DNA from: Natrinema salifodinae
GTDB lineage: Archaea; Halobacteriota; Halobacteria; Halobacteriales; Natrialbaceae
Reading direction: 5' to 3'
DNA length: 64,000 nt
Assembly (NCBI RefSeq): GCF_900110455.1
Contig: NZ_FOIS01000005.1
Location: 62,001-126,000 of the forward strand
In this document: positions 23,319 to 46,484 of the stretch, in pieces
Numbering within the stretch: position 1 is the stretch's first letter
Layout of the letters: each line of letters starts with the position of its first letter
Made by a program: the position numbers and the translations under genes
Notes under the pieces: model-generated
The model's input: the letters and a program-made list of their open reading frames with translations, nothing else
Databases searched by the model: none
What the model was told of the DNA's origin: nothing

Positions 23319-23906
23319 ATGACAAATTACGACATGAAGCTGACAGTTAACGGAACGGAGCACGAACTCGCGGTCGAGCCGCGGACGCTCCTGGTTCACG
23401 CGCTCCGAGACGAACTCGGCTACACCGGGACGAACGTCGGCTGCGAGAGCAGCCTGTGTGGCGCGTGTACGGTCCGCCTCGACGGCGACGCGGTCAAGGC
23501 CTGTACCGTCCTGGCCGTGCAGGCCGACGGCGCGACGATCGAGACGGTCGAAGGGCTGGCCGAGGACGGCGAATTCCACCCCATCCAGTCCGGGTTTCAG
23601 GAGGAACACGGACTCCAGTGTGGCTACTGCACCCCTGGGATGATGATGGCGGCGACCGATCTTCTCGCGGAGAACCCCGATCCCAGTCGCGAGGAGATCC
23701 GCGAGGGACTCGAGGGGAACCTCTGTCGGTGTACGGGCTACCAAAACATCGTCAACGCGGTCGAGAACGCGGCCGAAGAACTGCACGGCGGCGCCGTCGC
23801 CGACGGCGGTTGCAGCGCCGATTGTGCCGCGGGACGACCGGAGTCGGGGTGCGACTCCGGTGGCGGCAACGTACGCTGGCCTGGCGACGGGGGTGACGCC
23901 GAATGA
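23319..23906 (+). CDS. coxS: Mo hydroxylase small subunit, two 2Fe-2S clusters
   Basis: 195 residues. Plant-type cluster ligands: [15 protein letters not shown] and the following CT; second cluster: [10 protein letters not shown] and [10 protein letters not shown]. It passes electrons from the Mo site to the FAD subunit. The tail is odd: after the normal end near residue 160 it continues with a Cys- and Gly-rich extension holding several extra Cys ([19 protein letters not shown]). Overlaps the large-subunit start by 4 nt. Confidence 0.93.
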
Positions 23907-26371
23907 GCATCGAATCGATCGATCCCGAAGAGGTCGACGCCGCCGACATCCTCGGCTCGGCCATCGAACGACGGGAGGATCCCGCGCTCCTCACCGGCGA
24001 CGCCGAGTACATCGACGACATTCAACTGCAGGAGATGATCCACGTGGCGATCGTCCGCAGCCAGCACGGCCACGCGAAACTCGAGGGCGTCGAGACGAGC
24101 GAGGCGGCGGCGATGGACGGCGTCGTCGGCGTCTACACGCACGACGATCTCCACCGCGAGGACACCCCCGGCGGCGGCTCGTACTCGCTACCCGTCGGCT
24201 GGCTCCTCGACAGCCTTCGACAGGTCGATCATCCGATACTGGCCGACGACCGCGTTCGGTACCAGGGCGACGCGATCGCGGTCGTCGTCGCCGAGGACCG
24301 CTATACCGCCCACGACGCGGCCGACGCGGTCGCCGTCGACTACGAGCGACTCGACGCCGTAACCGACCCAGCCGAGGCGCTCGAGGGAGACGCGGCGCTT
24401 CACGACGACGCCGACGGGAACGTCGCGTTCGACTGGGAGATCGGCGACGCCGACCGGACCAAGGAAGCGTTCGAATCGGCCGCCCACACCGCGAGCATCG
24501 AACTGGAAAACCAGTTGCTCATTCCGAACGCGATGGAGCCCCGTGCCGCGGTCGCCGACTACAATCCCGGGACGAACGAACTCGACGTGTTCATGACCTC
24601 CCAAAACCCCCACTTGCACCGGCTGCTCATGTCGGGGGTCATCGGCCATCCGGAGCACAAACTGCGGATAAAAGCCCCGGAGGTTGGCGGCGGGTTCGGA
24701 AGCAAAATCCACCACTACGCGGACGAAGCGCTCGTCGCGTGGGTCGCCAAACACGTAGAGCGGCCGGTCAAGTGGACCGCGACCCGCACGGAGACGTACA
24801 AGACCGACGCCCAGGGCCGGGGACACGTGACGGAAGCCGACCTCGCGATGGACGAGGACGGCGACATCATCGGCCTCCGCGTCGACACGACGGCGAACCT
24901 CGGCGCGTATCTCTCGACGTTCGCACCCGCCGTCCCGACGTACCTCTACGGAACGCTGCTCTCGGGACAATACGACATTCCGGCGATCCACTGCTCGGTG
25001 ACCGGCGCGTTCACGAACGTGCCTCCGGTCGACGCCTACCGCGGCGCCGGCCGACCGGAGGCGTCGTTCGTCATCGAGCGCCTGGCGAAACCCGGCGCGG
25101 AGGAGATGGGGATGGACCCCGCGGAGTTCCGGCGACGGAACTTCGTCCCCGAAGATGCGTTCCCCTACGAAACCCAGGTCGCGGTCGTCTACGACAGCGG
25201 CGACTACGAGAAGACGCTGGACGAGGCCCTCGAGATGGTCGACTACGAGGCCTTCCGCGAGCGACAGGAGCAGGCCCGCGCGGAGGGACGGTATCTCGGC
25301 ATCGGCTTCTCGTGTTACATCGAGGCCTGCGGACTGGCGCCCTCCGAGCTGGCCGGCCAGCTCGGTGCCCAGGCCGGGCTCTGGGAGTCCAGTCTCGTCC
25401 GATTCCATCCCTCCGGAACGGTCACGGCCTACTGCGGGACGTCCGGTCACGGGCAGGGCCACGCGACAACGTACGCGCAGATCGTCGCGAACGAACTCGG
25501 CGTCCCCTACGAGGACGTCGAGGTCGTCGAGGGTGACACCGACGAGATCCCCCACGGGATGGGGACGTACGGCTCCCGGTCGGCCGCGGTCGGCGGGAGT
25601 TCGCTGGTCAAGAGCGCCGAGAAGGTCGTCGAAAAAGCCCGCGAGATCGCAGCGCACCAACTCGAGGCCGACCCCGCCGACGTCGAGTTCGAGGGCGGCG
25701 AGTTTCGGGTCGCGGGCGCGCCCGACCGATCGATCGGGATCACGGCGGTCGCTCAGCAGTCCTATCTCGCTCACGACATCCCCGACGACATGGAGCCCGG
25801 CCTCGAGGCTACGTCGTTCTACGACCCGGACAACTTCGTGTTCCCGTTCGGGACCCACGTCGCGGTCGTGGAGGTCGACCCGGACTCGGGGGAGATCGAA
25901 TTCGACCAGTACGTCGCCGTCGACGACGTGGGCAACCAGATCAATCCCAAGATCGTCGAGGGGCAGGTCCACGGCGGCGTCGCCCAAGGTATCGGCCAGG
26001 CGCTCTACGAGAGCGCGGAGTACGACTCGAACGCACAGCTCGTGACGGGATCGATGCAGGACTACGCCGTTCCGAAGGCGATGCACGTTCCGGAGATGGA
26101 CACCGGATCGACCGTCACCGAAAGCCCGCACAATCCGCTCGGCGTGAAAGGCGTCGGCGAGGCGGGCACGATCGCAGCGCCTCAGGCCGTCGTCAACGCC
26201 GTTACGGACGCGCTCGAGCCCTTCGGGGTCGACCGGATCGAGATGCCGATAACGGCCGAGCGGGTCTGGAACGCCGCCGATGGACGGACCGCCGCGGACG
26301 GCGGGACGGACGCTTCCGAACCCGATCCCGACCCGGATACCGCCGGCGACGGCAACGGAGGTGAGTCGTGA
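23903..26371 (+). CDS. coxL: Mo hydroxylase large subunit, form II CoxL-like
   Basis: 822 residues, the usual size for the molybdopterin subunit. The active-site loop reads AYRGAGR (residues 378-384). True form I CO dehydrogenases carry AYxCSFR there, so this belongs to the form II-like branch, whose substrates are mostly unproven. The catalytic Glu lies in GVGEAGT (about residue 753). Also visible: EVGGGFGSK and GHGQGHATTYAQI for the cofactor. The C-terminal 35 residues are an acidic, low-complexity tail. The substrate may be CO, a purine, an aldehyde or another heterocycle. Confidence 0.92.
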   Translation: MSIESIDPEEVDAADILGSAIERREDPALLTGDAEYIDDIQLQEMIHVAIVRSQHGHAKLEGVETSEAAAMDGVVGVYTHDDLHREDTPGGGSYSLPVGWLLDSLRQVDHPILADDRVRYQGDAIAVVVAEDRYTAHDAADAVAVDYERLDAVTDPAEALEGDAALHDDADGNVAFDWEIGDADRTKEAFESAAHTASIELENQLLIPNAMEPRAAVADYNPGTNELDVFMTSQNPHLHRLLMSGVIGHPEHKLRIKAPEVGGGFGSKIHHYADEALVAWVAKHVERPVKWTATRTETYKTDAQGRGHVTEADLAMDEDGDIIGLRVDTTANLGAYLSTFAPAVPTYLYGTLLSGQYDIPAIHCSVTGAFTNVPPVDAYRGAGRPEASFVIERLAKPGAEEMGMDPAEFRRRNFVPEDAFPYETQVAVVYDSGDYEKTLDEALEMVDYEAFRERQEQARAEGRYLGIGFSCYIEACGLAPSELAGQLGAQAGLWESSLVRFHPSGTVTAYCGTSGHGQGHATTYAQIVANELGVPYEDVEVVEGDTDEIPHGMGTYGSRSAAVGGSSLVKSAEKVVEKAREIAAHQLEADPADVEFEGGEFRVAGAPDRSIGITAVAQQSYLAHDIPDDMEPGLEATSFYDPDNFVFPFGTHVAVVEVDPDSGEIEFDQYVAVDDVGNQINPKIVEGQVHGGVAQGIGQALYESAEYDSNAQLVTGSMQDYAVPKAMHVPEMDTGSTVTESPHNPLGVKGVGEAGTIAAPQAVVNAVTDALEPFGVDRIEMPITAERVWNAADGRTAADGGTDASEPDPDPDTAGDGNGGES

Positions 26372-27261
26372 TGTACCCGGACGAGTTCGACTACTACGAG
26401 GCTGAGACGGTCGACGAGGCGATCGAGTTGCTCGAGGAGCACGCGATGGAAGAGACGGAACTGCTGGCGGGCGGGCACAGCCTGCTTCCGGCGATGAAGA
26501 CCGGGCTTTCGAGCCCGGACGTCCTGATCGACATCGGCGGGGTCGACGCCCTCCACGGCGTCGCCGTCGACGGCGACGCGCTCACGGTCGGCGCGATGAG
26601 CCGCTACAGCGATCTTCTCGAGTCCGACGATGCTCACGAGCACGCGCCGGCGATGACCGCGGCGGTCGAGCGGGTGGGCGATCGCCAAGTCCGTAATCGA
26701 GGGACGATCGGCGGAAATCTCGCGCACGCGGACCCGGCCTCGGATCTGCCCGCCGCCGCGCTCGTTTCCGACGCGACGCTGGTCGTCCAGGGACCGGACG
26801 GCGAGCGAACGATTCCGGCGGCGGAGTTCTACTACGGGATGTACGCGACGGCCCTCGGCCCGGCCGAGATCCTCACCCGGATCGAAGTGCCCTCGGCGAC
26901 CGACGCCGTCGGCACCTACGCGAAGAAGCCGAGCCCGTCGTCGGGATACGCGATGGTCGGCGTCGCGACCCTGCTGACGGTCGACGACGGGACCGTCACG
27001 TCGGCCCGAATCGGCGCGAACGGCGCGATGGATCACGGAGTGCGCCTCGAGCCGGTCGAGGACGCCCTGACCGGCGAGGCGCTCGACGAGGAGACGATCG
27101 CGGCGGCCGCCGAGCGCGCGACCGACGACCTCGATACGGCACTCATGATGGACGACTTGCAGGCGTCCGGCGAGTTCCGCGCCCAACTCCTGGAGGTGTA
27201 CACCGAGCGGGCGCTCACAGCGGCGATCGATCGGGTCTCCGCGCCCGCGGTCGCGGACTGA
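26371..27261 (+). CDS. coxM: Mo hydroxylase FAD-binding subunit
   Basis: About 296 residues. FAD-binding motifs AGGHSLLPAMK and TIGGNLAHADPASDLP are intact, and the C-terminal CO-dehydrogenase-flavoprotein domain follows. It passes electrons on to an acceptor. The ATG at 26371 overlaps the coxL stop by one base (TGATG); a GTG one codon earlier is possible. The order G-S-L-M differs from the M-S-L order of classical coxMSL. Confidence 0.93.
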   Translation: MYPDEFDYYEAETVDEAIELLEEHAMEETELLAGGHSLLPAMKTGLSSPDVLIDIGGVDALHGVAVDGDALTVGAMSRYSDLLESDDAHEHAPAMTAAVERVGDRQVRNRGTIGGNLAHADPASDLPAAALVSDATLVVQGPDGERTIPAAEFYYGMYATALGPAEILTRIEVPSATDAVGTYAKKPSPSSGYAMVGVATLLTVDDGTVTSARIGANGAMDHGVRLEPVEDALTGEALDEETIAAAAERATDDLDTALMMDDLQASGEFRAQLLEVYTERALTAAIDRVSAPAVAD

Positions 27262-27295
27262 AACGGCGAGCGGATCGCCGAATCCACACCTACAC

Positions 27296-28210
27296 ATGGA
27301 CGACGAACCGACCACGACGTTCGCGGACCTGACGGAGTCGGAGATCCGCGCAGCGTTCGAGGCGGAAGATTACGTCGCCGAGGATGAGATCGTGACCACC
27401 GTCCTCCTGGCGTTGCGGCTGGGCAAGCCGCTGCTGGTCGAGGGAGAACCAGGAACCGGGAAGACGGAACTCGCCAAGGTGCTGGCCTCGAGTCTCGGGA
27501 GCGAACTGATACGCCTACAGTGCTACGAGGGATTGACCGCCGAGCACGCCCTTTACGAGTGGAACTACACGAAACAGTTGCTCGCGGTACAGAGCGGGGA
27601 GGACCCCGAATCGTCGGTGTTCTCCGAAGAATTCCTGTTGGAGCGGCCCCTGCTACGGGCGCTTCGCAGCGACGCCGATCGGCCGCCCGTCTTGCTCATC
27701 GACGAGATCGACCGCGCCGACGACGAGTTCGAAGCGCTGCTGTTGGAGGTGCTCTCGGACTTTCAGGTATCGATCCCGGAGCTCGGAACCGCCGCGGCGG
27801 ATCGGCCGCCGATCGCGATCGTCACGTCCAACCGGACGCGGGCGTTGAGCGACGCGCTCAAGCGACGCTGTCTCTACCTGTACGTCCGGCCGCCGTCCGT
27901 CGAGAAGGAGACCGCCATTCTCCGGCGGCGAGTGCCCCGCTTGGACGATGTCGTCGCGACGGAACTCTGTGCGATGGTCGCTCGACTCCGCGAGGAACCG
28001 CTGCGAAAACCCCCCGGCGCGGCGGAAACGGTCGACTGGGCTCGAGCGGTCGCCTCGCTGCGCGAAGACGGAAACGGAACGCTCACACGCGAAACGATCC
28101 GAAATACGCTTGGCTGCCTGCTGAAGGAAGGCGAGGACGTCGACCGAGTCGACGAGGAACTGCTGACCGACCTCCTCGACGCCGCCGAGCGGGCGAGAGG
28201 TGAGCCGTGA
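27296..28210 (+). CDS. coxD: MoxR-type AAA ATPase (CoxD-like)
   Basis: 304 residues. Walker A GEPGTGKTEL, Walker B PPVLLIDEIDRADDE, sensor 1 IAIVTSNRTR and the Arg finger region LKRRCLYLYV. CoxD remodels or matures the Mo site in CO-dehydrogenase operons together with the VWA protein CoxE. It overlaps the coxE start by 4 nt. CoxE, its usual partner, is truncated here, which raises the question of whether maturation still works. Confidence 0.9.
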   Translation: MDDEPTTTFADLTESEIRAAFEAEDYVAEDEIVTTVLLALRLGKPLLVEGEPGTGKTELAKVLASSLGSELIRLQCYEGLTAEHALYEWNYTKQLLAVQSGEDPESSVFSEEFLLERPLLRALRSDADRPPVLLIDEIDRADDEFEALLLEVLSDFQVSIPELGTAAADRPPIAIVTSNRTRALSDALKRRCLYLYVRPPSVEKETAILRRRVPRLDDVVATELCAMVARLREEPLRKPPGAAETVDWARAVASLREDGNGTLTRETIRNTLGCLLKEGEDVDRVDEELLTDLLDAAERARGEP

Positions 28211-28815
28211 GCGAGCGCGCCGACGGCGTCCACGACCACGTCCGGACGGAACTCGTTCGATTCGTCCGCGCGCTCCGCCGCGGCGGCGCGTCGGTCCCGG
28301 CCAACGCCGGGACGACCGCCGCCGAAGCCATCGCCGAGATCGGACTCGGGGACCGCGCCCGCGCCCGAACGGCGCTGCGAGCCTCCCTCCACACCGATAG
28401 CGACGATTTCGAGGCGTTCGACCATCTGTTCGAGGCGTTCTGGCGTCGTCTCACGACGGACCTCGAAAACGAACGACTGGGGTCTTCGATCGACGGCGGG
28501 CTCGAGGAGGGGCTCGCGTCGCTCGGTGATCCGGCCGTGAGCGAAGACGCCGCGGAAGCGCCGGACGATCGTCAGGCCGTCGATCGCATCACCGACCGTT
28601 CGCTCGCCGAGTCGTTCGCGTCGGCGGTCTCCGAAGCGGACGACGGCGATAGCGACGGTTCCGGGGCGACGGCCGCGGCGTACAGCCCCGCTGGCTCGGC
28701 CACCACGGTCGACGGACGCCTCCCGATCGGTGCGAGCGGGCTCGTGACGCCGTTTCGCGACTGGCCGCCGACGTACTGGCCGACGACGGCCCCCGCGTCG
28801 AGACGTGGGATCTGA
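28207..28815 (+). pseudogene. coxE: Truncated CoxE (VWA protein), N-terminal part only
   Basis: 202 codons. The first 150 or so residues look like the N-terminal helical part of CoxE (VRFVRALRRGGASVP, then FEAFDHLFEAFWRRL). CoxE is normally about 400 residues and ends in a von Willebrand A domain with a DxSxS metal motif; none is present. After about residue 175 the frame runs out of step over sequence belonging to xdhC and stops. The ATG overlaps coxD. Interpretation: an internal deletion removed the VWA half and fused the stub to xdhC. Confidence 0.7.
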
Positions 28816-29696
28816 CCGGCGATGACGACGTCTGGGGCCTCGGAATCGGCTGCAACGGCGTGATAACGGTCCTGTTGGAACCGCTCGACGAGTCGTACCG
28901 ACCGGTCGTCGACGCCCGACGGGCTGACGACGCGATCGGCGTCGCGACCGTCGTTCGAATCGAGACCGACGTCGACACGTCCGTCGGCGACCGCGCGTAC
29001 TACCTGCCGGACGGCGGTTTTGCCGGCGACGCCGACCTTCCCGCGCAGGCGATCGATGAACTCGCGGATCCGATGGCGACGCTCGCGGCGATCGGCGAGA
29101 GCGAGACGCTGACCGTCGAAACGGACGAGGGATGCATCGACGTCTTCGTCGACGGGGTGCGGCCGCCGCCGGAACTCGTCGTGTTCGGCTCCGGCCACGA
29201 CGTCGGACCGGTCGTCGAACTCGCGACCCGCGTCGACTTTCGCACGACGGTCGTCACGTTCCGCGGCGGACGTGCCGACGACGACCGGTTCCCGCGGGCG
29301 GATGCGGTGATTTCGGCGTCGCCGCGGGAGCTCTCGACCCTTCGGGAGTGGGATGCGGAGACCTACGCGGTGGTGATGACCCACAACTTCCTCGACGACC
29401 GCCTGGCGCTGGACCAGTTGCTGGAAACACCGATCGAGTACATCGGACTGATGGGGCCGGAAAAGCGGTTCGAGGAGATGCGCGAGGATTTCGCCGAGGA
29501 GGGTCGAACGGTCACCGATGCGGACCTCGAGCGAATCTATACGCCGATCGGGTTGAGCCTCGAGGGAGACGCACCCTATCAGATCGCGTTTAGCATCGTC
29601 GCGGAGCTACTCGCGGTCGCTCACGACCGAACGCCGCGCCATCTCAGTCGGCGAACGGGACCGATCCACGACCGGACGACCCTCACGGAGAACTGA
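28746..29696 (+). pseudogene. xdhC: XdhC/CoxF-type maturation factor lacking its N-terminus
   Basis: In a different frame from coxE, sequence from about 28746 reads LAADVLADDGPRVETWDL, then DDVWGLGIGCNGVITVLLEP, the middle of XdhC. The Rossmann domain follows with VVFGSGHDVGPVVELA, and the end has GLMGPEKRFEEM and TPIGLSL. About 100 N-terminal residues, including the conserved GCLE-type loop, are missing. A GTG at 28860 could still start a 278-residue protein. XdhC inserts sulfurated Mo cofactor into the large subunit. Confidence 0.75.
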
Positions 29697-34891: not shown

Positions 34892-36154
34892 ATGCATCCG
34901 CGAACGTTCTGGGTACTCGACGACGACGATCGGGACGTCGTCGACGACCTCGCCGTCGGACTCGGACGGACGGCCGCGCGGGTACTCGCGTACCTCCTGC
35001 GACGAGCCGAGCGGGAGGACGAGCCGGCGACCGCCGTGCAGATGCAGATCGGCACGGAACTGAGCCGGTCGCCGATCAGCGATGCGGTCTCCCGGCTCGA
35101 GGAGGACGGACTGATCGACCGGTCGACGCTCCCCGACGACACCCAGGGGCGACCACCGTCCGCCTGGCGCCCCAGCGGTGATCTCGCCGAAAGTCGCCGT
35201 CGCGCGTACGAACAGCATGCGCGGGCGTTGCTCGACCGGACGGAAGCGCTGTTCGTCGATCGGCCGTCAGACTCAGAACCGGAGACCGGTTCCGAAACCG
35301 ACCTCACGGTCGCGTTGAACTGGCGGCCTAACGGGCTGCACGTTCCGATCTATGCGGCGTCGGAGGCGGCGTGGTACGACGAGTACGGCGCCGACGTCGA
35401 CATCGAGCACCACGAGGGCTCGTCGCGCGCGGTCGATCGAGTTCGCCAGGCCGAGGCGGACGTCGCGGTCGCCGGCGCTGCGACGGTGCTCCGAGCCAGG
35501 GCGGCGGGGGTGCCCCTCGTTCCGATCGCGGTTCTCTACCAGCGCGCGATGACGGTGCTGTACACTGCTCGCGAGGCGTTCGGCGAAGAGCTTCGGAGCG
35601 TCAGTCAGTTACAGGGACGCCGGATCGGCATGGTGCCTCGCTCCGAGACGGGGGTGCTCGGGCGCTTATTCATCTCACAGACGGCGCTCGAGGACGATAT
35701 CGAGATCGTCGAAACGACCGGCGAAGAACGGGCGGCGTTGTCGACCGGACGCGCGGACGTCGTGACCGGATCGATGACCGATCCGCGACAGCTAGAGCGT
35801 CGCGGGAAGACGGTCGACGCGTTACAGGTCACCGATCACTTTCCCATCTACGGGCCGACGATCGCCGTTCACGAACGGCTGCTCCGGACGCGGCGGTCGG
35901 CGCTCGCCGCATTTCTCGCCGGAACGGCGGGCGGCTGGGCGGACGCGAAAAGTGACCCTGGGCCGGCGGTGGATCGGATCGCCGCGATCGGCGACGACGA
36001 ACCGGACGACGTCCGGGCGACGTTCGAGCGGGCGGTCGACGACTTCGGCGACAGCGAGGCCACCCGGGAACGCGGCTGGGGGTGGCAGCGCGAGCGAACG
36101 TGGGACCGGCTTCGAACGGCGCTCGATCAGGGGGAGCTGCTCACCGCCGCATGA
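34892..36154 (+). CDS. Winged-helix / NMT1-THI5-type ligand-binding fusion regulator
   Basis: 420 residues, no signal peptide and no lipobox. Residues 20-95 form a winged helix (LGRTAARVLAYLLRRAE, SPISDAVSRLEEDGLIDRS, GRPPSAWRPS). After a linker, residues 137-360 form an NMT1/THI5-type periplasmic-binding fold: LNWRPNGLHVPIYAASEAAWYDE at its start (in parts, LNWRPNGLHVPIYAA and WYDEYGADV), AEADVAVAGAATVLRARAAG, then RIGMVPRSETGVLGR. That start is clearly similar to the exported binding protein at 38548-39603 (LNWNLSGLHAPYVAA). It probably senses the transported compound in the cytoplasm and controls the operon (inference). The stop overlaps the ATPase start. Confidence 0.85.
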   Translation: MHPRTFWVLDDDDRDVVDDLAVGLGRTAARVLAYLLRRAEREDEPATAVQMQIGTELSRSPISDAVSRLEEDGLIDRSTLPDDTQGRPPSAWRPSGDLAESRRRAYEQHARALLDRTEALFVDRPSDSEPETGSETDLTVALNWRPNGLHVPIYAASEAAWYDEYGADVDIEHHEGSSRAVDRVRQAEADVAVAGAATVLRARAAGVPLVPIAVLYQRAMTVLYTAREAFGEELRSVSQLQGRRIGMVPRSETGVLGRLFISQTALEDDIEIVETTGEERAALSTGRADVVTGSMTDPRQLERRGKTVDALQVTDHFPIYGPTIAVHERLLRTRRSALAAFLAGTAGGWADAKSDPGPAVDRIAAIGDDEPDDVRATFERAVDDFGDSEATRERGWGWQRERTWDRLRTALDQGELLTAA

Positions 36155-36894
36155 TCGAACTCGAGGACCTCACGGTCGCGTTCGACGACGTCACCGCGGT
36201 CGCGGACGTCGACCTGCGAATCGATCGCGGCGAGTTCGTCACCGTCGTCGGGCCGTCCGGCTGCGGGAAGACGACCCTGTTGCGCGCGATCGGTGGTCTC
36301 CAGACGCCGACGAGCGGCGGCGTCCGCATCGACGAGCGATCGCCGTCGATCGCCCAGGACGCGGGCGATATCGGGTTCGTGTTTCAACAACACACGCTGC
36401 TGCCGTGGAAGAGCGCGCTCGAGAACGTCACGTTCCTGCGGGAGATGGCGGGCGAGTCGCCGGACCGGGAGGACGCCCGCGCGTTGCTCGACTCGATGGG
36501 ACTCGAGGGGTTCGAGGACGCCCGTCCGCGCGCGCTCTCGGGCGGGATGAAACAGCGGGTCGCGATCGCGCGGGCGCTGCACCTCGGTGCGGACGTGCTG
36601 CTGATGGACGAGCCGTTCGGCGAACTCGACGAGCTCACCCGCGACGAACTGGGCGTCGAGCTGCGGTCGCTCTGGCGACGCGAACGGAAGACGGTCGTCT
36701 TCGTCACGCACAGCGTCCCCGAGGCGGTCTTCCTCGGCGATCGGTGCGTGGTGATGGGCGATCGTCCGGGCCGGATCGAAGCGGTGTTCGACGTCGAGTT
36801 ACCCGAACCGCGGGACGCGGCGGTGTTCGGCTCCCGGCCGTTCCAGGAACGTGTCGCGGCGGTTCGCCGAACGCTCCACGAGAACCATGACTGA
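36151..36894 (+). CDS. ABC ATPase of SsuB/ThiZ type
   Basis: 247 residues from MIELEDLTVAF. Walker A GPSGCGKTTLLRAIGG, Q-loop FVFQQHTLLPWKSALEN (FQQ..LLPW is typical of the nitrate/taurine/THI5 group), signature LSGGMKQRVAIARAL, Walker B VLLMDEPFGELDELTR, switch His VTHSVPEA. It is the only ATPase in this 5 kb cluster, so it may serve both permeases. Overlaps the genes on both sides (ATGA at its start). Confidence 0.92.
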   Translation: MIELEDLTVAFDDVTAVADVDLRIDRGEFVTVVGPSGCGKTTLLRAIGGLQTPTSGGVRIDERSPSIAQDAGDIGFVFQQHTLLPWKSALENVTFLREMAGESPDREDARALLDSMGLEGFEDARPRALSGGMKQRVAIARALHLGADVLLMDEPFGELDELTRDELGVELRSLWRRERKTVVFVTHSVPEAVFLGDRCVVMGDRPGRIEAVFDVELPEPRDAAVFGSRPFQERVAAVRRTLHENHD

Positions 36895-37669
36895 CCGGGT
36901 CCGCGTGGACGCCGTCGACGCGGTCTATCCGACGGGCGCGCTCTGCGCCGTCGTCGCTCTCTGGTGGACGATCACGCTGGTCGCCGACGTTCCGCCGTTC
37001 GTACTCCCGCCGCCCGACGCCGTCGCCGCGCGGTTGCTCGGCAACCCGGCTCTCTACCTCGCCAACGCCTGGTACACGCTCGAGAAGGTCGCGTACGGCG
37101 GGACCATCGGGGTCGCCTCCGGGACCGTCCTCGCGGTGTTCGTCGCCTACGTGCCGTGGTTTCGGCGGGCCGTGTACCCGTATCTCGTGACGGTGCGGGT
37201 GCTGCCCAAACTCGCGGTCGCACCCCTGTTGCTCATCTACGTCGGGACGGGGATGGCGACCGCAATCGTGTTCATCGCGCTCATCACGTTCTTCCCGCTC
37301 GTGTTGAACGTCGCGGCCGGACTCGACCGGGCGCCGCCGGCGCACCGCGACCTGCTTCGATCGGTGAACGCCGGCTCCATAGAGCGGTTCCTGTACGTCG
37401 ACGTCCCCTACGCGATCCCCGACTTCTTCGCGGGACTCAAACAGTCGGTGACGCTTGCGGTCGTCGGCGCGGTCGTCGCGGAGTGGGTAGTCGCGGACGG
37501 CGGACTCGGCTTTCTCGTTCAAATGGGTTCGGAGAACGTCCGCCCGGACGTCGTGCTCGCCGCCCTCGTCGTCCTGCTGCTCGAGGGACTCTTGTTGTAC
37601 GGCCTGGTCGTCGTCGCACAGCGCGGTATCGACGCACGGTTCGACCTCGGAACCGCCGGTTCCGACTAA
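36887..37669 (+). CDS. ABC permease of SsuC/ThiX type (first of two)
   Basis: 260 residues from MTDRVRVDA. Five to six membrane helices; PPFVLPPPDAVAARLL and the coupling loop LLRSVNAGSIERFLYVDVPYAIPDF match the SsuC family. Overlaps the ATPase end by 8 nt. Ends 1 nt before the end of the convergent second permease gene. Confidence 0.9.
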   Translation: MTDRVRVDAVDAVYPTGALCAVVALWWTITLVADVPPFVLPPPDAVAARLLGNPALYLANAWYTLEKVAYGGTIGVASGTVLAVFVAYVPWFRRAVYPYLVTVRVLPKLAVAPLLLIYVGTGMATAIVFIALITFFPLVLNVAAGLDRAPPAHRDLLRSVNAGSIERFLYVDVPYAIPDFFAGLKQSVTLAVVGAVVAEWVVADGGLGFLVQMGSENVRPDVVLAALVVLLLEGLLLYGLVVVAQRGIDARFDLGTAGSD

Positions 37670-37670
37670 C

Positions 37671-38537
37671 TCAAGGATTCCAAACGATCCGCTCGATCGC
37701 GACCGGGACGAGGTAAAACCCGATCCCCAGCAAGGAGAGCACGACGAGCGCGGCGTAGGTCTCGGCCGTTCGGAGGTACGCCGCCGTCTCGAATACCCGG
37801 TACCCGATCCCGGCGGTGAGCGTGACGAACTCGGCGACGATCGCCCCGACGACGCTCAACGTGGCCGCGATTTTGAGCCCGGCGAAGACGCTCGGCGCGG
37901 CCGCGGGGACGCGCACGTGGACGAACGCGGCGGTCTTCGAGGCGCCGACCGTCTCCAGCAACTCGAGGTGCGATCGTGGCGTCTTCCGGAGCCCGTCGAG
38001 GGTCGCGACCGTGATCGGAAAGACGGTCAGCGTCGCGACCACGAGGGCGCGCGCCGGAACGCCGCGCCCGAACCAGAGAAACAGCAGCGGCGCGATCGCG
38101 ACCAGCGGCGCGATCCGGAGCGCGACGACCACCGGAAGGATCGTGTTCGTCGCCGTTCGCGAGTGTATCATCGCGAACGCGAGGGCGGCGCCGACCACGC
38201 ACCCGACGGCGAGTCCGATACCGGCGGTCGCGCCCGTAACGGCGGCGTCGCGCAGCAACATCGGAGACGCGTCGACGAGCGCCGTTCCAACCTCGACCGG
38301 CGACGGAAGGATCACCGACGGCAGGTCGTAGTAGACGACGGCGCCCTGCCAGGCCGCGAGTAGCCCCGCGAACACGACCGTCGGCGGAAGCACCCGCCTG
38401 GCGAGCGTGCGGGCGACGGCGGCGGACCCGTCGATGGCGTCGCGGCCGCGTGACGGGCTCCCGAACCGTCGCCCATCGCGTCGTCTGTCGTGCTGTCCGT
38501 CGCTTCGGTCGAGCGGCGGTCGTTCGGATCGGGACAC
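37671..38537 (-). CDS. ABC permease of SsuC/ThiX type (second)
   Basis: 288 residues. A charged Arg-rich N-terminus of about 45 residues precedes the first helix; then LPSVILPSPVEVGTALVD and the coupling loop LLETVGASKTAAFVHVRVPAAAPS. It is a paralogue of the permease at 36887-37669 and lies tail to tail with it. The gap to the binding-protein gene upstream is 10 nt, so those two are one operon. The two permeases may form a heterodimer (inference). Confidence 0.88.
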   Translation of the reverse strand: MSRSERPPLDRSDGQHDRRRDGRRFGSPSRGRDAIDGSAAVARTLARRVLPPTVVFAGLLAAWQGAVVYYDLPSVILPSPVEVGTALVDASPMLLRDAAVTGATAGIGLAVGCVVGAALAFAMIHSRTATNTILPVVVALRIAPLVAIAPLLFLWFGRGVPARALVVATLTVFPITVATLDGLRKTPRSHLELLETVGASKTAAFVHVRVPAAAPSVFAGLKIAATLSVVGAIVAEFVTLTAGIGYRVFETAAYLRTAETYAALVVLSLLGIGFYLVPVAIERIVWNP

Positions 38538-38547
38538 GGAATCGTCC

Positions 38548-39603
38548 TCACTCGCCGGTCAGGTCGGCGTAGTCGGCGATGTACTCGGAGTCGCTATCGA
38601 GGTACTCGTTCGTCCAGACGTCGGCCGGATCGACCTCTCCCTCGAAGAAATCGGCGGCGGCGAGCGTCTCGTACGTCTCGGTCCACGGGCCCGAGTCGCT
38701 CGTCCCCCAGCCGTCCGTCTCCACTGTCTCGGAGCGCATGTACCCGGCGTGCATCGCCGCCCACTTCTCGTACTGGTTCGCCCGCGTTTCGTCGAGTTCC
38801 GGCTGCGAATCCACGAGAAGGTCGATCGCCTGGTCCGGGTTCCGGGCCGCCCAGACGGCCCCTCTGGCAGTCGCTCGGAGGAACGACCGGACGGTGTCGG
38901 GGTTCTCCTCGGCGAAGGCTTCGTTCGTCGCGATCAGGTGTCCGTAGGAGGGGACGACGTCGTGAACCTCGAGCGTCTCGATCTCTCCGCCCTGTTGTTC
39001 CGCGTCGACGACGTCCCCGAACACGCCGCCGGCGACGTCGATGTCCCCGGTGAGCAGCTGTTGAATGGTGTCGAATCCGGTGTCGACGTAGTCGACGCCG
39101 TCCAGCACGCCGTGGTGGGCGAGGTAGGCCTCCGTCATCGTCCGCACCATGCCGGGCCCGCTGCCGATCGTGGCCCCCTCGAGTTGCGCCGGCTCCGCGA
39201 GTTCGCCGAAGCGCTCCCGATCGGCGAAGACGACGTTCGGATTCCGCTGCATGACGATGCCGACGGCGATCGGTGAGAGCTCGTTCGCGTTGGCGGCGAG
39301 GAGCTGATCGCTACTCGTGATCGCGAACTCGACGTTGCCGAGCCCGGCCTGGTTCGCCGCGAAGTCGGAGCCGTCGCCGCTCTCAAGCTCGACGTTCGTG
39401 AACCCCGCTTCGTCGTAAAACCCGTTTTCGCGGGCGGCGACGTAGGGTGCGTGGAGCCCGCTCAGGTTCCAGTTGAGCAGTAGCGTCACGTCGTCCGTCC
39501 CCGCGCCCGGAGAATCGCTCCCGATACTTCCGATACACCCCGAGACGGCGATCCCACCTCCGACGGCGAGGATCGCTCGCCGCGAGGGATGTGAATAGCT
39601 CAC
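38548..39603 (-). CDS. NMT1/THI5-type substrate-binding lipoprotein
   Basis: 351 residues starting with GTG. Twin-arginine region SRRAILAVGGGIAV and lipobox Cys23 (SGCIGS) predict a Tat-exported lipoprotein. The mature protein begins with TLLLNWNLSGLHAPYVAARE and contains GSDFAANQAG and GIVMQRNPNVVFADR, as in proteins that bind pyrimidine precursors of thiamine, riboflavin, taurine or nitrate-like ligands. The ligand cannot be fixed from sequence. It has no ATPase in its own operon and presumably uses the one at 36151-36894. Confidence 0.88.
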   Translation of the reverse strand: MSYSHPSRRAILAVGGGIAVSGCIGSIGSDSPGAGTDDVTLLLNWNLSGLHAPYVAARENGFYDEAGFTNVELESGDGSDFAANQAGLGNVEFAITSSDQLLAANANELSPIAVGIVMQRNPNVVFADRERFGELAEPAQLEGATIGSGPGMVRTMTEAYLAHHGVLDGVDYVDTGFDTIQQLLTGDIDVAGGVFGDVVDAEQQGGEIETLEVHDVVPSYGHLIATNEAFAEENPDTVRSFLRATARGAVWAARNPDQAIDLLVDSQPELDETRANQYEKWAAMHAGYMRSETVETDGWGTSDSGPWTETYETLAAADFFEGEVDPADVWTNEYLDSDSEYIADYADLTGE

Positions 39604-39961: not shown

Positions 39962-40864
39962 ATGACAACCACACAAATCACGGACGAAGCCCAGCGCCAA
40001 CTCGTCCGCACGCTCGGCGTCGAGCGGGCGAACGACGGCAATCAGCTGACGGTCAAACGCTTACGTGAGGCGATCGACGCGGAGACCGATCCCGCGTTCG
40101 CCTCCATGGGGGAATCGATACGAAGCGACCTCTCGGGAAAATTGGACATCGAGGTACTCGAGGACGGATTGGAGGAACTATCGGCTCAGATCGAACGGCT
40201 CCCGGACGTTCGCGAACAGGGGATTCCCGACGGCGAGACGGAGCCGGAAGTCTTGTACCGCGAACTCGTCGACCCCGGGTGGCAGGTCTACGATCACCTC
40301 GTGGACGTCGACTTCTTCGAGAGCCTCGAAGCGAACCTACCGCGGTTCACGCCGGAGCACATCGAGACGACGACTCACGAACTGATCGGTTCGGACGCGC
40401 TGACCGAGGAACTCGCCGCATTGGGCTTCGACGAGCGCGAGCGGATCGCGCTCGTCACGGACGTCGTCAATAACAACACGCGTCTCGCCCGCTGGGTTCC
40501 GACGAAGGAGATCCCGACGGACGTCGAGTTCGGCGTCGAACACGTCCCGCCGCTCCACCAGCGGGCGACGGGCGGCGCCTTGCTGTGGATCAACGCGCTC
40601 GACGTCCACCTGTGGCAAAACCGCGTTCTCGTCACCGACGAGATGCTGGACGACGGCTACTGGGACGTCAAGGCGCTGCTCGGCGGACTGTACCTGATGG
40701 CGAAAGCGGCGCTCGAGGTCGCACGCGGCGACGAACTGACCGACTCCCAGTTGACAGCCGCGATCACCGCGAGCGCGGCGATCACGATCGTCAACCAGGA
40801 AGAGATCTGCAAGAACGTATTCTGGATCACGGAAGAAATGCGCGCACCACCGAAAGCGAGGTAA
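39962..40864 (+). CDS. Unrecognised 300-residue protein paired with the quinoprotein
   Basis: About 300 residues from MTTTQITDEA. Acidic, mostly helical in appearance, no signal peptide and no clear membrane helix. Notable stretches: VLYRELVDPGWQVYDHLVDV, WVPTKEIPTDVEFGVEHVPP and NQEEICKNVFWITEEMR, with a single Cys there. Only 6 nt separate it from the quinoprotein, so they are co-transcribed. I do not recognise a family; it could be a subunit, chaperone or electron acceptor of the dehydrogenase. A Met 20 codons upstream (39902) is possible but gives a poor N-terminus. Confidence 0.75.
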   Translation: MTTTQITDEAQRQLVRTLGVERANDGNQLTVKRLREAIDAETDPAFASMGESIRSDLSGKLDIEVLEDGLEELSAQIERLPDVREQGIPDGETEPEVLYRELVDPGWQVYDHLVDVDFFESLEANLPRFTPEHIETTTHELIGSDALTEELAALGFDERERIALVTDVVNNNTRLARWVPTKEIPTDVEFGVEHVPPLHQRATGGALLWINALDVHLWQNRVLVTDEMLDDGYWDVKALLGGLYLMAKAALEVARGDELTDSQLTAAITASAAITIVNQEEICKNVFWITEEMRAPPKAR

Positions 40865-40870
40865 TTCACA

Positions 40871-42589
40871 ATGTCACTCGAAGAAGATAGGGCCGTACAG
40901 GCCGCGAAAGACACGATCGTCAGAGAAACGGACCAGGGTTTCCGCGTCCTCGGCTCGCCCGAGAAATCGGTCACGCACCAACACGACATCGACCGCATCG
41001 AGGAGTTCGACGTCACCGACGAGATGATCATGGAGTCGGGCGAGAATCCCGACGCCTGGCTCACCTACGGCGGGAACTACGAGCAACACCGCCGGACGAC
41101 GGCCGACGTCATCACGCCTGAGAACGTCGAGAATCTCGAGGTCGAGTACATCCTCGACGTCGGGGCCGGGTCGAGCATGGAGGGGACGCCGCTGATCGTC
41201 CCCGGCGATCCGCCGGTCATGTATCAATCGAACGGGCCAAACCACGTCAAGGCCATCGACGCCCGCGAAGGCGAGATCCTCTGGAGCTACACGTACGCCG
41301 TCCCCTCGGACGTCGTGCTCTGTTGTGACGATAACAACCGGGGCGTCGCCGTCCGCAACGACAAAGTCTTCATGACGACGCTCGACTCGGGCGTCGTCGC
41401 CCTCGACCGCTACACGGGCGAAGAGGTGTGGTACACGTCCACCGCCGACCACGAAGAGGGGTACTCGGCGACCTGGGCACCCGTCGTCTACGACGGAATG
41501 CTCTTTACCGGGAGCGCCGGCGGCGAATACGGCGTTCGCGGGTTCCACAAGGCGCTCGACACCGAGACCGGCGAGGAGCTGTGGCACACCTGGACCTCCT
41601 CGGAGGACGAGTGGGTCGGCGACAGTATCAACCAGTCCTGTGCGACGAACTGGATGAACGCGACGATCGACGTCGAGAACCGGCAACTGCACCTGCCGAT
41701 CGGCAACCCCGGTCCCGACTTCGACGGCTCCGTCCGTCCGGGTCCGAACCGGAACAGCTGCGGGACGCTGACCCTCGATATGGACACCGGCGAACGGGTG
41801 TGGTCCCACCAGGAAGTCGCCCACGACGTCTGGGACTACGACTCCGCGGCGCCGCGGATCCTCATCCGGGACTTCGAGATCGAACACCGCGACACGACGA
41901 CCGACGTCGTCGTCTCCGCGGGCAAAACGGGGTGGGTCTACACCATGGACGCCGACACCGGCGAGCTCATCGAACGGAGCGAACCGGGCGTCCAACAGCT
42001 GAACATGTACCGGATGATCCCGCACATCGACGAGGGTCGACGGATGCCGTTCATGCCCGGCGCGATGGGCGGCAACGACTGGCAGCCGCCCGCCTACAAC
42101 CCCGAGACCGGGCTCGCGTACATGAAGATGAACAACTCGCCCCAGGAGGCCTGGTGGCGCTTCGAAGAGTACGAGGAGGGCAAGAAGTACTGGGGCGGCA
42201 TCTTGGAGGACCAGACCGAGGCGGTCCCGGACGAGTACAACGAGAAGATCAGCGCCATCGTCGCGATCGACCCCGAGACGGGCCAGCGCGTCTGGCGCGA
42301 TTGGATCGAGAGCGACGCCTACATCTGGGGCGGCCTGGTGACCACCGAAACCGGCGTGGTCTTCACCGGCACCCAGAACGGGGACTTCATCGCCTACGAC
42401 GGCGAAACCGGCGACCGGCTCTGGGAGTACGACCTCGGCGAGGCGTCGATCGCCGGGAGCCCGATGAGTTGGTACGACCCGGCGACCGAGAAGCAGTACG
42501 TCGCCATTCAGGTCGGCGGCAGCGGCTGGCTCCGACGGGGCGCCGGCGGCCGCGACACCCGCCTGGCCGTCTTCTCGCTGCAGGGGTAG
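40871..42589 (+). CDS. PQQ-dependent methanol/alcohol dehydrogenase-like quinoprotein
   Basis: 572 residues, about the size of the large subunit of methanol dehydrogenase. An eight-bladed propeller is suggested by repeated DxxTGExxW motifs. Visible hallmarks: adjacent Cys151-Cys152 (VVLCCDDNNRG), which form the vicinal disulfide over PQQ; Glu219 (GSAGGEYGVRG); Asn279 (GNPGPDF); catalytic Asp322 in WDYD, with a second Asp324 two residues on, the position used by lanthanide-type enzymes; Lys352 (GKTGWVYTMD). It oxidises an alcohol with PQQ. Odd: no Sec or Tat signal, and an unusual charged N-terminus of about 50 residues. Confidence 0.88.
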   Translation: MSLEEDRAVQAAKDTIVRETDQGFRVLGSPEKSVTHQHDIDRIEEFDVTDEMIMESGENPDAWLTYGGNYEQHRRTTADVITPENVENLEVEYILDVGAGSSMEGTPLIVPGDPPVMYQSNGPNHVKAIDAREGEILWSYTYAVPSDVVLCCDDNNRGVAVRNDKVFMTTLDSGVVALDRYTGEEVWYTSTADHEEGYSATWAPVVYDGMLFTGSAGGEYGVRGFHKALDTETGEELWHTWTSSEDEWVGDSINQSCATNWMNATIDVENRQLHLPIGNPGPDFDGSVRPGPNRNSCGTLTLDMDTGERVWSHQEVAHDVWDYDSAAPRILIRDFEIEHRDTTTDVVVSAGKTGWVYTMDADTGELIERSEPGVQQLNMYRMIPHIDEGRRMPFMPGAMGGNDWQPPAYNPETGLAYMKMNNSPQEAWWRFEEYEEGKKYWGGILEDQTEAVPDEYNEKISAIVAIDPETGQRVWRDWIESDAYIWGGLVTTETGVVFTGTQNGDFIAYDGETGDRLWEYDLGEASIAGSPMSWYDPATEKQYVAIQVGGSGWLRRGAGGRDTRLAVFSLQG

Positions 42590-42974: not shown

Positions 42975-43562
42975 ATGCCAGTGTGTGATCACTGCGGCGA
43001 GGAGCACTCGTTGCCCGGGTCGTACATGAGTCACGTTCTCACGTGCGCCGGCGGTAACGGGACCGCGCCCCCGAAAGAGTCCGTCGAGGTCGCGGAACCG
43101 ACGCCCGACGGAGACGCGAACGGATCGACGGTACCGACGGCCGAGTTAGACGCCGAAGACGCGGCGGCGCCGACGCTCGACGGGCACGTCCAACGGGTGG
43201 TTTCGGAGCAGTTGTCCGCCGTCGAATCCGAGATCGAACGCGTCTCGGCGGACCTCGAGGAACTCGAGAAGTTCGCGACGATCAGCCTCGGGGAGCGACG
43301 GCTCAGCCAGACCGAGGAAAACCTGTCCGAGTTCTCGACGTCGCTCACGGAACTCTCCGAACGGACCCTCGAGAAGGTTACCGACCTCGAGGCCCGACTC
43401 GAACTGCAGGAGATCGTCCTCGCGACCGTCCTCGAAGCGCTCGCCGAGGCCGACGTCGAGGCCGACGTTTCGGCGATTCGGGACTACCAGCGGGACCACG
43501 TCGTCACCGAACAGTCGTCGTCCGAACGGCTCGAGACGGCGATCGACGCGGTCGAGTCCTGA
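42975..43562 (+). CDS. Zinc-finger protein with long coiled coil
   Basis: 195 residues. The N-terminus has C4-x2-C7 ... H20-x3-C24 (CDHCGEEH, then SHVLTC), a small zinc finger. Residues 30-70 are acidic and Pro/Ala-rich. Residues 75-165 are heptad-rich (VSEQLSAVESEIERVSADLEE region), predicting a coiled coil. It is probably a structural or DNA-associated dimer; function unknown. Confidence 0.65.
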   Translation: MPVCDHCGEEHSLPGSYMSHVLTCAGGNGTAPPKESVEVAEPTPDGDANGSTVPTAELDAEDAAAPTLDGHVQRVVSEQLSAVESEIERVSADLEELEKFATISLGERRLSQTEENLSEFSTSLTELSERTLEKVTDLEARLELQEIVLATVLEALAEADVEADVSAIRDYQRDHVVTEQSSSERLETAIDAVES

Positions 43563-43688: not shown

Positions 43689-44171
43689 CTACACTTCTCG
43701 GACGCCGATGACCCGATCCTGCAGGTACTCCAGGTGCATCGCGTTATAGACGAGTTTCACCTCGTCGCTCGCCGGGACCGCCTGGCAGGTGAGGACGATC
43801 CCTCGCTCCTCAACCTCGTCCTCGGTGAGGATGAGATCCATGTCCATCGAGAGATCGCCCTCGTACACGATCCCGGCGCAGTTCGCACACGAGGCCGCGC
43901 GACACTCGAACGGCCAGTCGAAGCCCTGATCTTCGGCCGCGTCGAGGACGTACCGTCGCCCGCGGACTTCGATCGTCCCGTGATCGGCGTCGTCGAGGTC
44001 GGCGTCGGCGGCTTTCTCGAAGAGGTCCTCGTCCTCTATCTCCCAGCCGTGTTCGTCGAGTACCTCGTAGTTGAGGTATTCGACGGTTCGAACGGGGCCG
44101 TCGGTACCGTCGCTGCCGTCACGTTGCTCGGCGTCCTCGCCGAGGCGGACGTTGGGGAGATCGAGTGACAT
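43689..44171 (-). CDS. Halobacterial-type 2Fe-2S ferredoxin
   Basis: 160 residues. Cluster ligands C-x4-C-x2-C in [12 protein letters not shown] and the distant Cys in VLTCQAVP. The acidic insertion [21 protein letters not shown] and the C-terminal [17 protein letters not shown] are typical of halophilic ferredoxins. The family transfers electrons in 2-oxoacid oxidation and other reactions. It has about 28 extra residues at the N-terminus compared with the usual protein. Faces the zinc-finger gene tail to tail. Confidence 0.92.
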
Positions 44172-44240: not shown

Positions 44241-46484
44241 TCACTCCCGGCCGCGTTCACCGCCGTCGAACGGATCGATCGGCTCGCCGCGTCGAGCACT
44301 CTCGCCTGGCGACGTCCCGTCGGCCGCTTCGAGGGCCCGTTCGAAGTGCTCGTTCGTTAATTCGAGTTCCCGCACGTCGGTCCGCCTGTCTCGCCCGTCG
44401 GTCTCTCCCTCGACGTACTCGCGGACGGCGGCCGTCGCCGCCCGACGACAGAGCCCGTCGATGTCGGCGCCGACGAATCCGTCCGTTCGAGCGGCCAGCG
44501 CGTCGAGCTCGACGTCGGACGCGAGCGGTCGGTCGCGGAGGTGGATCTCGAAGATGTCCCGGCGCGCCGCCTGGTCGGGAGCGCCGACGGAGACCTCTCG
44601 CTCGAACCGTCCCGTCCGGAGCAACGCGTCGTCAAGGCGGTCCGGCCGGTTGGTCGTCCCGATGACCACGACGTCCTCGAACTCTTCGAGTCCGTCGAGT
44701 TCGGTGAGTAACTGCGACACCACGCGCTCCCCGACGTCGGACTCCCCGGATCCGCCGCGCGCGCCGGCGATCGCGTCGATTTCGTCGAACACCAGGACGG
44801 CGGGCGCGTTCTCTCGGGCCTTCCCGAAGATCTCGCGGACGGCCTTCTCGGACTCGCCGACGTACTTGTCGACGAGTTCGGGCCCCTTTATCGAGATGAA
44901 ATTCGACTGCGCCTCGGTGGCGACCGCTCTGGTCAGCAGCGTCTTCCCGGTCCCCGGCGGGCCCGAGAGAAGAATCCCCGTCGTCGGCCGCAGCGAGACT
45001 CGCTCGAAGGCGTCGGGATACTCGAGGGGCCACTGCACGGCCTCTCGGAGCGTCCGTTTCGCCTCGGAGAGGCCGCCGACGTCCGCCCAGCCGACGTCGG
45101 GACCCTCGACGACCACCTCCCGCATCGCGGAGGGTTCGATCCCGTGCAGCGCCGTTTCGACGTCGGCGTCGACGATCTCGACGGCCTCCGGGCGGTCGAT
45201 CGAGAGCTCGGTATCGGCATCGCCAGGCGAGGATGACCGCACCCGCCGCAGCGCGCACATCGCGCTCTCCCTGACCAGATTCTCGAGGTCCGCGCCGACG
45301 AAGCCGTGCGTGGACTCGGCGTACCGCTCGAGGTCGACGTCGTCGCTCAACGGGACGCCTCGCGCGTGAATTTGAAGGATATCCGCCCGCTCGTCGGCGT
45401 CGGGAACGCCGACCTCGATCTCGCGGTCGAACCGCCCCGGTCGGCGGAGCGCGGGGTCGACCGCGTCGACACGGTTCGTCGTTCCTACGACGACGACCTG
45501 CCCCCTGTCGTCCGCGCCGTCGAGCAGCGAGAGCAACTGGGCGACGATCCGGCGCTCGACGTCCCCGCCGACGTCCTCGCGCTTCGGCGCGATCGCGTCG
45601 ATTTCGTCGACGAAGACGATGGCGGGCGCATTCGCCGCGGCCTCCTCGAAGACCTGCCGAAGTCGCTCCTCGCTCTCGCCGTAGTACTTCGAGACGATCT
45701 CCGGCCCGGAGAGCGTCTGGAAGTGCGCGCCGACCTCGTTCGCCATCGCCCGAGCGAGCAGCGTCTTGCCAGTCCCCGGCGGTCCGTAGAGGAGGACACC
45801 CGTTGGGGGATCGACTCCGAGCCGATCGAAGAGATCGGGGTGGCGCATCGGTAGCTCGATGACTTCGCGAACCCGCTCGAGTTCGTCGTCGAGGCCGCCG
45901 ATCTCGTCGTACGTTACGCCCGTGTTCGCCGACGCGGTCCGTTCGGGGTCGTCGACGGTCGACGGCGACGCCGGCTCCGGAGCGACGACGATCGAGGTCC
46001 ACTCCTCGACGCAGACGTAGGCGGACGGTTCGACGTCGACGATTTCGATCGGAACGCGCCGAGACGGCGCACTCGAACCGGGCTCGGCGGCGACCGACAC
46101 CGTCGTCGTCTGGCCGCTCGAGAGCACCCGGCCGACCAACGCGTCCCGCTGCGAGAGCGCGAGCGCCTGGTCGGGATCGACGTCGTCGGGCAGCGCGATC
46201 TCGACCCGTTCGGCCGATCCGACGTCGGCCGGTTCGACGGAGACCGTCTCGCCGGCGGTGACGCCGAGCGTCTCGGCGAGTTCGGGCGCGAGCCGGATCG
46301 TCCGCTCGTCGGCCTCCTCCGACGGCCGTGCCGTCACCTCGGCGACAGCGGACTCGTCGGCCGGCCCCTTCAGGACGACGTAGTCGCCCGACTCCAGGCC
46401 GAGGTCGGCCATCGCGTCCCGTTCGACGACGGCCGTCGGCTCGCCTGGTCGATTCGCGACGAGTGGTTTGACCGTGAGTTTCAT
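44241..46484 (-). CDS. CDC48/VCP-type AAA+ ATPase
   Basis: 747 residues: an N-terminal double-psi-barrel region (residues 1-185), then two AAA+ modules with Walker A GPPGTGKTLLARAMANEVG near residue 231 (in part: GPPGTGKTLLARAM) and GPPGTGKTLLTRAVA near residue 505, Walker B VFVDEIDAIAPKRE and LVFDEIDAIAGARGG, and paired Arg fingers. It unfolds proteins for degradation or remodels complexes, as a hexamer in the cytoplasm. Haloarchaea often have several paralogues; this may be an accessory copy. Confidence 0.92.
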   Translation of the reverse strand: MKLTVKPLVANRPGEPTAVVERDAMADLGLESGDYVVLKGPADESAVAEVTARPSEEADERTIRLAPELAETLGVTAGETVSVEPADVGSAERVEIALPDDVDPDQALALSQRDALVGRVLSSGQTTTVSVAAEPGSSAPSRRVPIEIVDVEPSAYVCVEEWTSIVVAPEPASPSTVDDPERTASANTGVTYDEIGGLDDELERVREVIELPMRHPDLFDRLGVDPPTGVLLYGPPGTGKTLLARAMANEVGAHFQTLSGPEIVSKYYGESEERLRQVFEEAAANAPAIVFVDEIDAIAPKREDVGGDVERRIVAQLLSLLDGADDRGQVVVVGTTNRVDAVDPALRRPGRFDREIEVGVPDADERADILQIHARGVPLSDDVDLERYAESTHGFVGADLENLVRESAMCALRRVRSSSPGDADTELSIDRPEAVEIVDADVETALHGIEPSAMREVVVEGPDVGWADVGGLSEAKRTLREAVQWPLEYPDAFERVSLRPTTGILLSGPPGTGKTLLTRAVATEAQSNFISIKGPELVDKYVGESEKAVREIFGKARENAPAVLVFDEIDAIAGARGGSGESDVGERVVSQLLTELDGLEEFEDVVVIGTTNRPDRLDDALLRTGRFEREVSVGAPDQAARRDIFEIHLRDRPLASDVELDALAARTDGFVGADIDGLCRRAATAAVREYVEGETDGRDRRTDVRELELTNEHFERALEAADGTSPGESARRGEPIDPFDGGERGRE

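Follow-up and report, generated by a model that had tools for sequence, protein, structure and literature searches.

A haloarchaeal quinoprotein alcohol dehydrogenase with a carrier-like partner protein: a putative internalisation with exchange of the electron acceptor

In the window, that is, the whole 64,000-nucleotide stretch of Natrinema salifodinae DNA analysed here, two adjoining genes encode an all-helical protein (the partner, ORF1) and a quinoprotein that bears no signal peptide (ORF2). The explanation that we consider probable is that they specify an internalised quinoprotein alcohol dehydrogenase together with a carrier-derived partner, and that the electron acceptor was swapped from a copper protein to a ferredoxin. 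The novelty lies in the carrier protein, the loss of its signal and the swap of acceptor. A search of the open-access literature found no earlier description of haloarchaeal quinoproteins (subscription papers lay outside its scope).

The gene pair and its two proteins

The two genes lie on the same strand with the spacing that an earlier note on this DNA had reported (Table 1). Across 50 haloarchaeal genomes we find 77 intact partner genes, each directly 5′ of a quinoprotein gene of the same family and on the same strand. The adjacency recurs at 53 of 53 partner loci, all of them haloarchaeal, in the GTDB genome collection, which was scanned with a 15-row partner alignment and overlaps the first genome set in part. 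The intergenic gap is at most 43 nt in 71 of 74 measured pairs, and the distances among partners correlate with those among enzymes with an r of 0.90, compared with a maximum of 0.18 over 1000 permutations. The pairing is far above chance. Furthermore, the strong matches of a separate quinoprotein search coincide with pair loci, although, with no more than four candidates scored in each genome, it may miss additional copies. The partner family is present in 51 of 292 sampled genomes of the class, and no partner was found outside haloarchaea in the genome collection (phylum sample: 7 of 393 genomes, all of the same order). One more genome (G192) holds a degraded pair, in which short fragments of the partner and quinoprotein genes stand side by side (L133, 6231–7345), as if lost jointly. 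The earlier note had proposed a new partner protein, a proposal that a consistent absence of the upstream gene beside homologues would have told against; the same two genes stand side by side in other haloarchaea, and the partner is obligate in both genome sets.

Table 1. Features of the gene pair and its surroundings (positions in the 64,000-nucleotide window)
Feature	Position	Strand	Remark
Genes of NitT/TauT-type ABC transport, including two binding proteins of NMT1 type	34892..39603		comparable genes beside many pairs of the window clade and of clades B and C
Partner protein (ORF1), 300 aa, all-helical, outside any known family	39962..40864	+	N-terminus without Tat signal (MTTTQITDEAQRQLVRTLGVERANDGNQLTV), unlike relatives
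Gap between partner and quinoprotein, 6 nt	40865..40870	+	
Quinoprotein alcohol dehydrogenase (ORF2, putative activity), 572 aa, eight-bladed propeller, without signal peptide	40871..42589	+	
Cys151-Cys152, vicinal cysteines of PQQ pocket	codons 41321..41326	+	kept in 49/76 relatives
Asp322-Tyr-Asp324, catalytic Asp and extra Asp (lanthanide-binding in XoxF/PedH)	41834..41842 (Asp322 41834–41836, Asp324 41840–41842)	+	both invariant, 76/76
Coiled-coil ORF, Cys/His-rich N-terminus	42975..43562	+	at 18/19 window-clade and 2/6 sister-group loci, none elsewhere
2Fe-2S ferredoxin (PF00111, without signal), proposed electron acceptor	43689..44171	-	beside pair at 22/25 A+A2 loci, 0/52 elsewhere
CDC48-type AAA+ ATPase	44241..46484	-	beside pair at 19/19 window-clade loci

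ORF1 belongs to no described family. It has no matches in Pfam and chance-level matches only in NCBIfam and the PDB, and the 77 partner homologues yield only the Tat signal and chance matches against Pfam-A, with no described domain family. The predicted structure (pLDDT 90) is all helical; Foldseek returns no solved fold at E ≤ 0.001, and the best VIA match (Z 6.1) is of helical-bundle background. An HGPRT-like model (NF006605), the HD protein 3b57, and acyl-CoA dehydrogenase and talin-like bundles were rejected as relatives of the partner, their matches being at chance level.

In Pfam, ORF2 is assigned to PF01011 with an E value of 1.5e-55, and among solved structures PedH (6zcv/6zcw) comes nearest to it. 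The AF2 model (pLDDT 89.1) forms the eight-bladed propeller of alcohol dehydrogenases and superposes on 6zcw with a VIA Z score of 45.9 and an rmsd of 1.9 Å over 507 residues at 34% identity, in agreement with the XoxF- and PedH-like quinoprotein proposed in the earlier note. All residues named there are found: Cys151-Cys152, Glu219, Asn279, Asp322 and Asp324 align with residues 104-105, 172, 256, 299 and 301 of XoxF (4mae). Specifically, Asp322, Asp324, Trp261, Arg157 and Lys352 are invariant in the 76 aligned quinoproteins, Asn279 is kept in 75 and Glu219 in 67; Lys352 aligns with the PQQ-contacting Arg326 of 4mae. Asp403 aligns with the Asp of the GGKD motif of 4mae, a position at which PedH has Asn. 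Taken together, ORF2 is best explained as the catalytic subunit of a haloarchaeal quinoprotein alcohol dehydrogenase, a putative activity.

The sequence criterion for lanthanide enzymes is an Asp two residues past the catalytic Asp (PMC11996626), and Asp324 stands at this position. The D-x-D motif is still present in distant clades in which Cys-Cys or Glu219 has been lost, so that its invariance is a family trait and cannot separate lanthanide users from calcium users. Lanthanide use by the window quinoprotein is putative, though plausible.

Tat signals and the direction of change

None of the quinoproteins of the 77 pairs has a signal peptide; the signal peptide of its own that characterises a lanthanide enzyme of the XoxF/PedH type is thus missing from ORF2 and its aligned relatives. 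The absence of a Sec or Tat signal on the window quinoprotein, as claimed in the earlier note, withstands a search for hidden starts, as the stop-to-stop frame of ORF2 reaches just two codons further upstream. For ORF1, an upstream GTG would add 20 residues, which hold no hydrophobic stretch.

Many partners start with a classical haloarchaeal Tat motif, for example DRREFLKALGVVAGGGVAGATL. Motif and hydrophobicity together identify a Tat signal on 34 of the 77 partner homologues, and the Tat profiles TIGR01409 and PF10518 match 32 and 26 of them, respectively (matches listed to E 1; best E 2e-4). The window partner lacks this signal, as does its whole clade of 40 rows. As for the traits of a Tat hitchhiker, a signal-less catalytic subunit encoded with a carrier is seen in 77 of 77 pairs, while the window partner lacks the Tat signal. 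Because the signal occurs on relatives' partners and on none of the quinoproteins, the partner has the appearance of a Tat carrier, with the quinoprotein as its hitchhiker. The pair of the relatives thus looks, from sequence, like a Tat hitchhiker in its anatomy, and its folded complex would be co-exported.

A precedent for a Tat hitchhiker subunit is the gamma subunit of FAD glucose dehydrogenase (PMC6719666). Like the partner of the relatives, it is small, helical, Tat-bearing and encoded with a signal-less catalytic subunit. The two differ in that the catalytic mate of the partner is a quinoprotein and not a GMC flavoprotein, and no sequence or fold match between them is detectable; the window partner, moreover, has no signal. 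Compared with the known hitchhiker subunits of other dehydrogenases in general, the partner gives no domain-family match and no fold match above background.

It is improbable, in our estimate, that the partner is a dedicated maturation chaperone instead of a subunit, with the signal in the Tat-bearing clades acting as a membrane anchor and not in export. There is no obvious cleavage site after the Tat-like region (DRREFLKALGVVAGGGVAGATLRDLRGE), as an anchor would have it, and the fold matches no solved structure that might point to a function, but the strict 1:1 adjacency and the co-divergence with the enzyme are what one would expect of a stoichiometric subunit, and the hitchhiker subunit of known structure remains bound to its enzyme (PMC6719666). 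We therefore retain the reading of the partner as a carrier-derived subunit, and in the window clade it is most likely kept as a structural or stabilising one.

In a partner tree from which the N-terminus was left out, the Tat label needs only three changes. In the bacterial-rooted quinoprotein tree, the clades with a Tat signal on the partner (G, D, E and C) diverge earlier than the two without one, B and A, of which A is the window clade, with A2 as its sister group. Support is 100 for G, 99 for C+B+A, 94 for B+A, which is under the strong level of the program, and 100 for A+A2. A root placing the bacteria with A is rejected (p-AU 4e-9). One Methylobacterium outgroup row with an apparent misread frame, no catalytic motif and a very long branch was left out of the tree. 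The phylogeny that the earlier note had suggested places the haloarchaeal clade outside the bacterial sequences sampled. Given the rooted tree and the rejection of the A root, loss of the signal is the better-supported direction, with the Tat signal of the partner putatively ancestral and lost before the window clade.

Neighbouring genes and candidate electron acceptors

A copper protein of the plastocyanin/azurin type (PF00127) is encoded beside the pair at all 38 loci of four clades (B, 15/15; C, 6/6; E, 13/13; F, 4/4), the clade C calls being those of a custom profile alone, with no Pfam match for the single clade-C protein compared. These copper proteins usually bear their own Tat signal, and in three cases (L125, L130 and L202) the copper domain is fused to the N-terminus of the quinoprotein. 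Annotated records bear this out for clades E and F, with plastocyanin adjoining the pair in Natrinema thermotolerans and Natrononativus. In clade E, the copper protein beside the pair carries a fused glucose/sorbosone dehydrogenase domain (PF07995), which is another fold of quinoprotein type (L104, 9245–11347; L112, 2218–4665).

In the window clade and its sister group, none of the 25 loci has a copper protein beside the pair, and the ferredoxin listed in Table 1, named 'ferredoxin Fer' in annotated records, is encoded there instead. The two never occur at the same locus, either among the 77 loci or in the named GTDB set, and the 16 loci with a ferredoxin in named genomes are all without a Tat signal and without a copper protein. 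Within the fetched flanks, the ferredoxin is missing at three window-clade loci, and three loci of clade D and 8 of the 11 of clade G have neither carrier. On the tree, the exchange of copper protein for ferredoxin maps to a single event, which leaves the association with little statistical replication. The earlier note had listed no cytochrome c partner in the window; read as a lack of any electron partner, this has to be corrected, as the ferredoxin is a plausible acceptor. A second ferredoxin of the same family (L214, G000:C4:643389-643781) is 61% identical to the window copy, and the match holds one TAA stop.

The loss of the Tat signal, the disappearance of the copper protein and the gain of the ferredoxin together indicate that the window-clade enzyme most likely remains in the cytoplasm. 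The earlier note had proposed that the enzyme works inside the cell or leaves by an unknown route: the first part is the best reading for the window clade, whereas the route of the relatives is recognisable as the Tat signal of the partner. Clade B provides a caution. Its partner is also without a Tat signal, yet the adjoining gene encodes a Tat-bearing copper protein, so signal loss by the partner alone is no proof of a cytoplasmic location; the carrier role in this clade might have passed to the copper protein subunit.

By extension, the window-clade pair could still be Tat-exported on a signal-bearing protein encoded elsewhere, with the ferredoxin unrelated to its function. We regard this as unlikely. 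Clade B illustrates how a third subunit might take over as carrier, and three-component Tat hitchhiking is known from PaoABC (PMC4273604), but at the A+A2 loci no copper protein is present and a signal-less ferredoxin takes its place at 22 of 25.

The other neighbours are less directly informative. Similar transporter genes recur beside other pairs (Table 1), and in the product of 34892-36154 of the window a MarR-like winged-helix domain is followed by a fused NMT1-type binding domain. No export signal is apparent, and the fusion resembles a regulator that would sense a ligand and control the adjacent ABC transporter. The vicinity of 8 of 19 clade-A loci includes genes of the AFOR family (aldehyde:ferredoxin oxidoreductase), and that of clade B and C pairs includes formate-dehydrogenase-like genes, which is consistent with stepwise alcohol oxidation; neither is found within the 64-kb window. 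At 23903–29696, the window contains genes for a molybdoenzyme of the xanthine dehydrogenase/CO dehydrogenase type, accompanied by a MoxR-like AAA gene and one for an XdhC protein; in Halococcus dombrowskii, a homologue with 55% identity is encoded only a few genes away from the pair. Near 15 of 19 window-clade and 5 of 15 clade-B loci (for example L140, 9289–10029, and L039, 10777–11550) there is a gene for a SAM-dependent methyltransferase whose hydrophobic N-terminus includes the motif FGLYHWRRR; the window itself has no such gene.

Cofactor, proposed mechanism and meaning

The earlier note had seen no PQQ synthesis genes in the window, and this extends to whole genomes at the cut-offs used. 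PqqC is absent from 50 of 50 pair-bearing genomes (3 of 7 bacterial control records matched), and PqqB and PqqE give nothing over the cut-off in 18 genomes (3 of 3 controls matched). The lack of pqq genes means that PQQ must be imported, unless the cofactor is a different one. In the actinobacterium-borne plasmid NZ_CP109439.1 (Streptomyces sp. NBC_01483; L208), a gene (71518–73023) whose quinoprotein product has a DYD motif and apparently lacks a signal adjoins pqqB (70270–71145), pqqC (69561–70220) and pqqE (68196–69227); no homologue of the haloarchaeal partner lies near it. Signal-less quinoproteins may thus occur in actinobacteria too.

These absences raise the question whether the quinoprotein is empty or differently loaded, holding no PQQ, or a cofactor other than PQQ, and serving as a scaffold or a non-redox enzyme. 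Further points in that direction are the TIGR03075 score (PQQ-dependent methanol/ethanol dehydrogenase) of 372.5 bits, which is under the NCBIfam cut-off of 480.05, the invariant Lys at the position of the PQQ-contacting Arg, and the loss of Cys-Cys or Glu219 in distant clades. Such a role is nevertheless doubtful, and we assign it a low probability: the five invariant residues, together with the nearly invariant Asn279 and the largely kept Glu219, speak for a redox enzyme, as do the redox carriers that are adjacent or fused in most clades, and PQQ is imported by many bacteria (PMC12124388). The acido-empty-quinoprotein group A (TIGR04528), which shares a related propeller and whose model name itself denotes a non-PQQ protein, scores 248.8 bits with ORF2, under its cut-off of 650.

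We return to the reading of ORF2 as a cofactor-bearing enzyme. In the ancestor, a helical partner with a Tat signal would carry the folded, cofactor-loaded, signal-less quinoprotein out of the cell as a hitchhiker, and there electrons would pass to a blue-copper protein, itself exported by Tat and encoded beside the pair. In the window clade, the partner would have lost its Tat signal, the copper protein would have gone and the gene of a cytosolic 2Fe-2S ferredoxin would have joined the locus. The enzyme would then stay in the cytoplasm, oxidise an alcohol and pass its electrons to the ferredoxin, and the dedicated CDC48-type ATPase may possibly assemble or activate it. This fuller proposal, namely a cytoplasmic quinoprotein that reduces a 2Fe-2S ferredoxin, descends from an exported, copper-linked ancestor and relies within the cell on a quinone cofactor that is imported or as yet unnamed, perhaps together with a lanthanide, is put forward tentatively, as somewhat short of an even chance. 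A thermodynamic difficulty is that the potentials of ferredoxins are usually low, lower than that of PQQ; electron transfer from reduced PQQ to ferredoxin would therefore be uphill, unless the redox site is unusual or the direction of use differs.

The closest known enzymes are PedH/ExaF, the lanthanide-dependent ethanol dehydrogenases (6zcv, 6zcw), which share with ORF2 the propeller and the aligned Cys-Cys, Glu, Asn, catalytic Asp and +2 Asp. In contrast to them, the window enzyme has no signal peptide, has Lys in place of the PQQ-contacting Arg and comes with an obligate helical partner, and its locus has an adjoining ferredoxin gene and no cytochrome c gene beside it, in a genome without pqq genes. 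XoxF methanol dehydrogenase (4mae, 6dam) shares the D-x-D metal motif and the Asp equivalent to Asp403, and differs in the same respects as PedH; the haloarchaeal clade is separate from it, too, in the tree. The PQQ dehydrogenases of heterotrophic marine Thaumarchaeota (PMC7300363) are likewise archaeal quinoproteins, some with DYD and with blue copper as a suggested acceptor. Unlike the family described here, they have signal peptides of their own in 15 of 21 families and a PQQ synthase reported in the genomes, and the passages of that paper on which this comparison draws make no mention of a partner protein.

Bacterial quinoprotein alcohol dehydrogenases are normally exported and pass their electrons to cytochrome c or quinone. 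The present family is their archaeal counterpart. Its dedicated putative carrier has a fold that matches none recognised, the candidate acceptor in most clades is a blue-copper protein, and one of the clades has changed both the signal and the candidate acceptor. The host also has a clade-B pair with a copper protein (contig C2, L039); as it carries both forms, their comparison is directly testable in one organism. If confirmed, the window clade would represent a traceable return of a respiratory enzyme to the cytoplasm, would raise the question of how haloarchaea use a quinone cofactor that they do not make, and would give a possible lanthanide enzyme an intracellular location.
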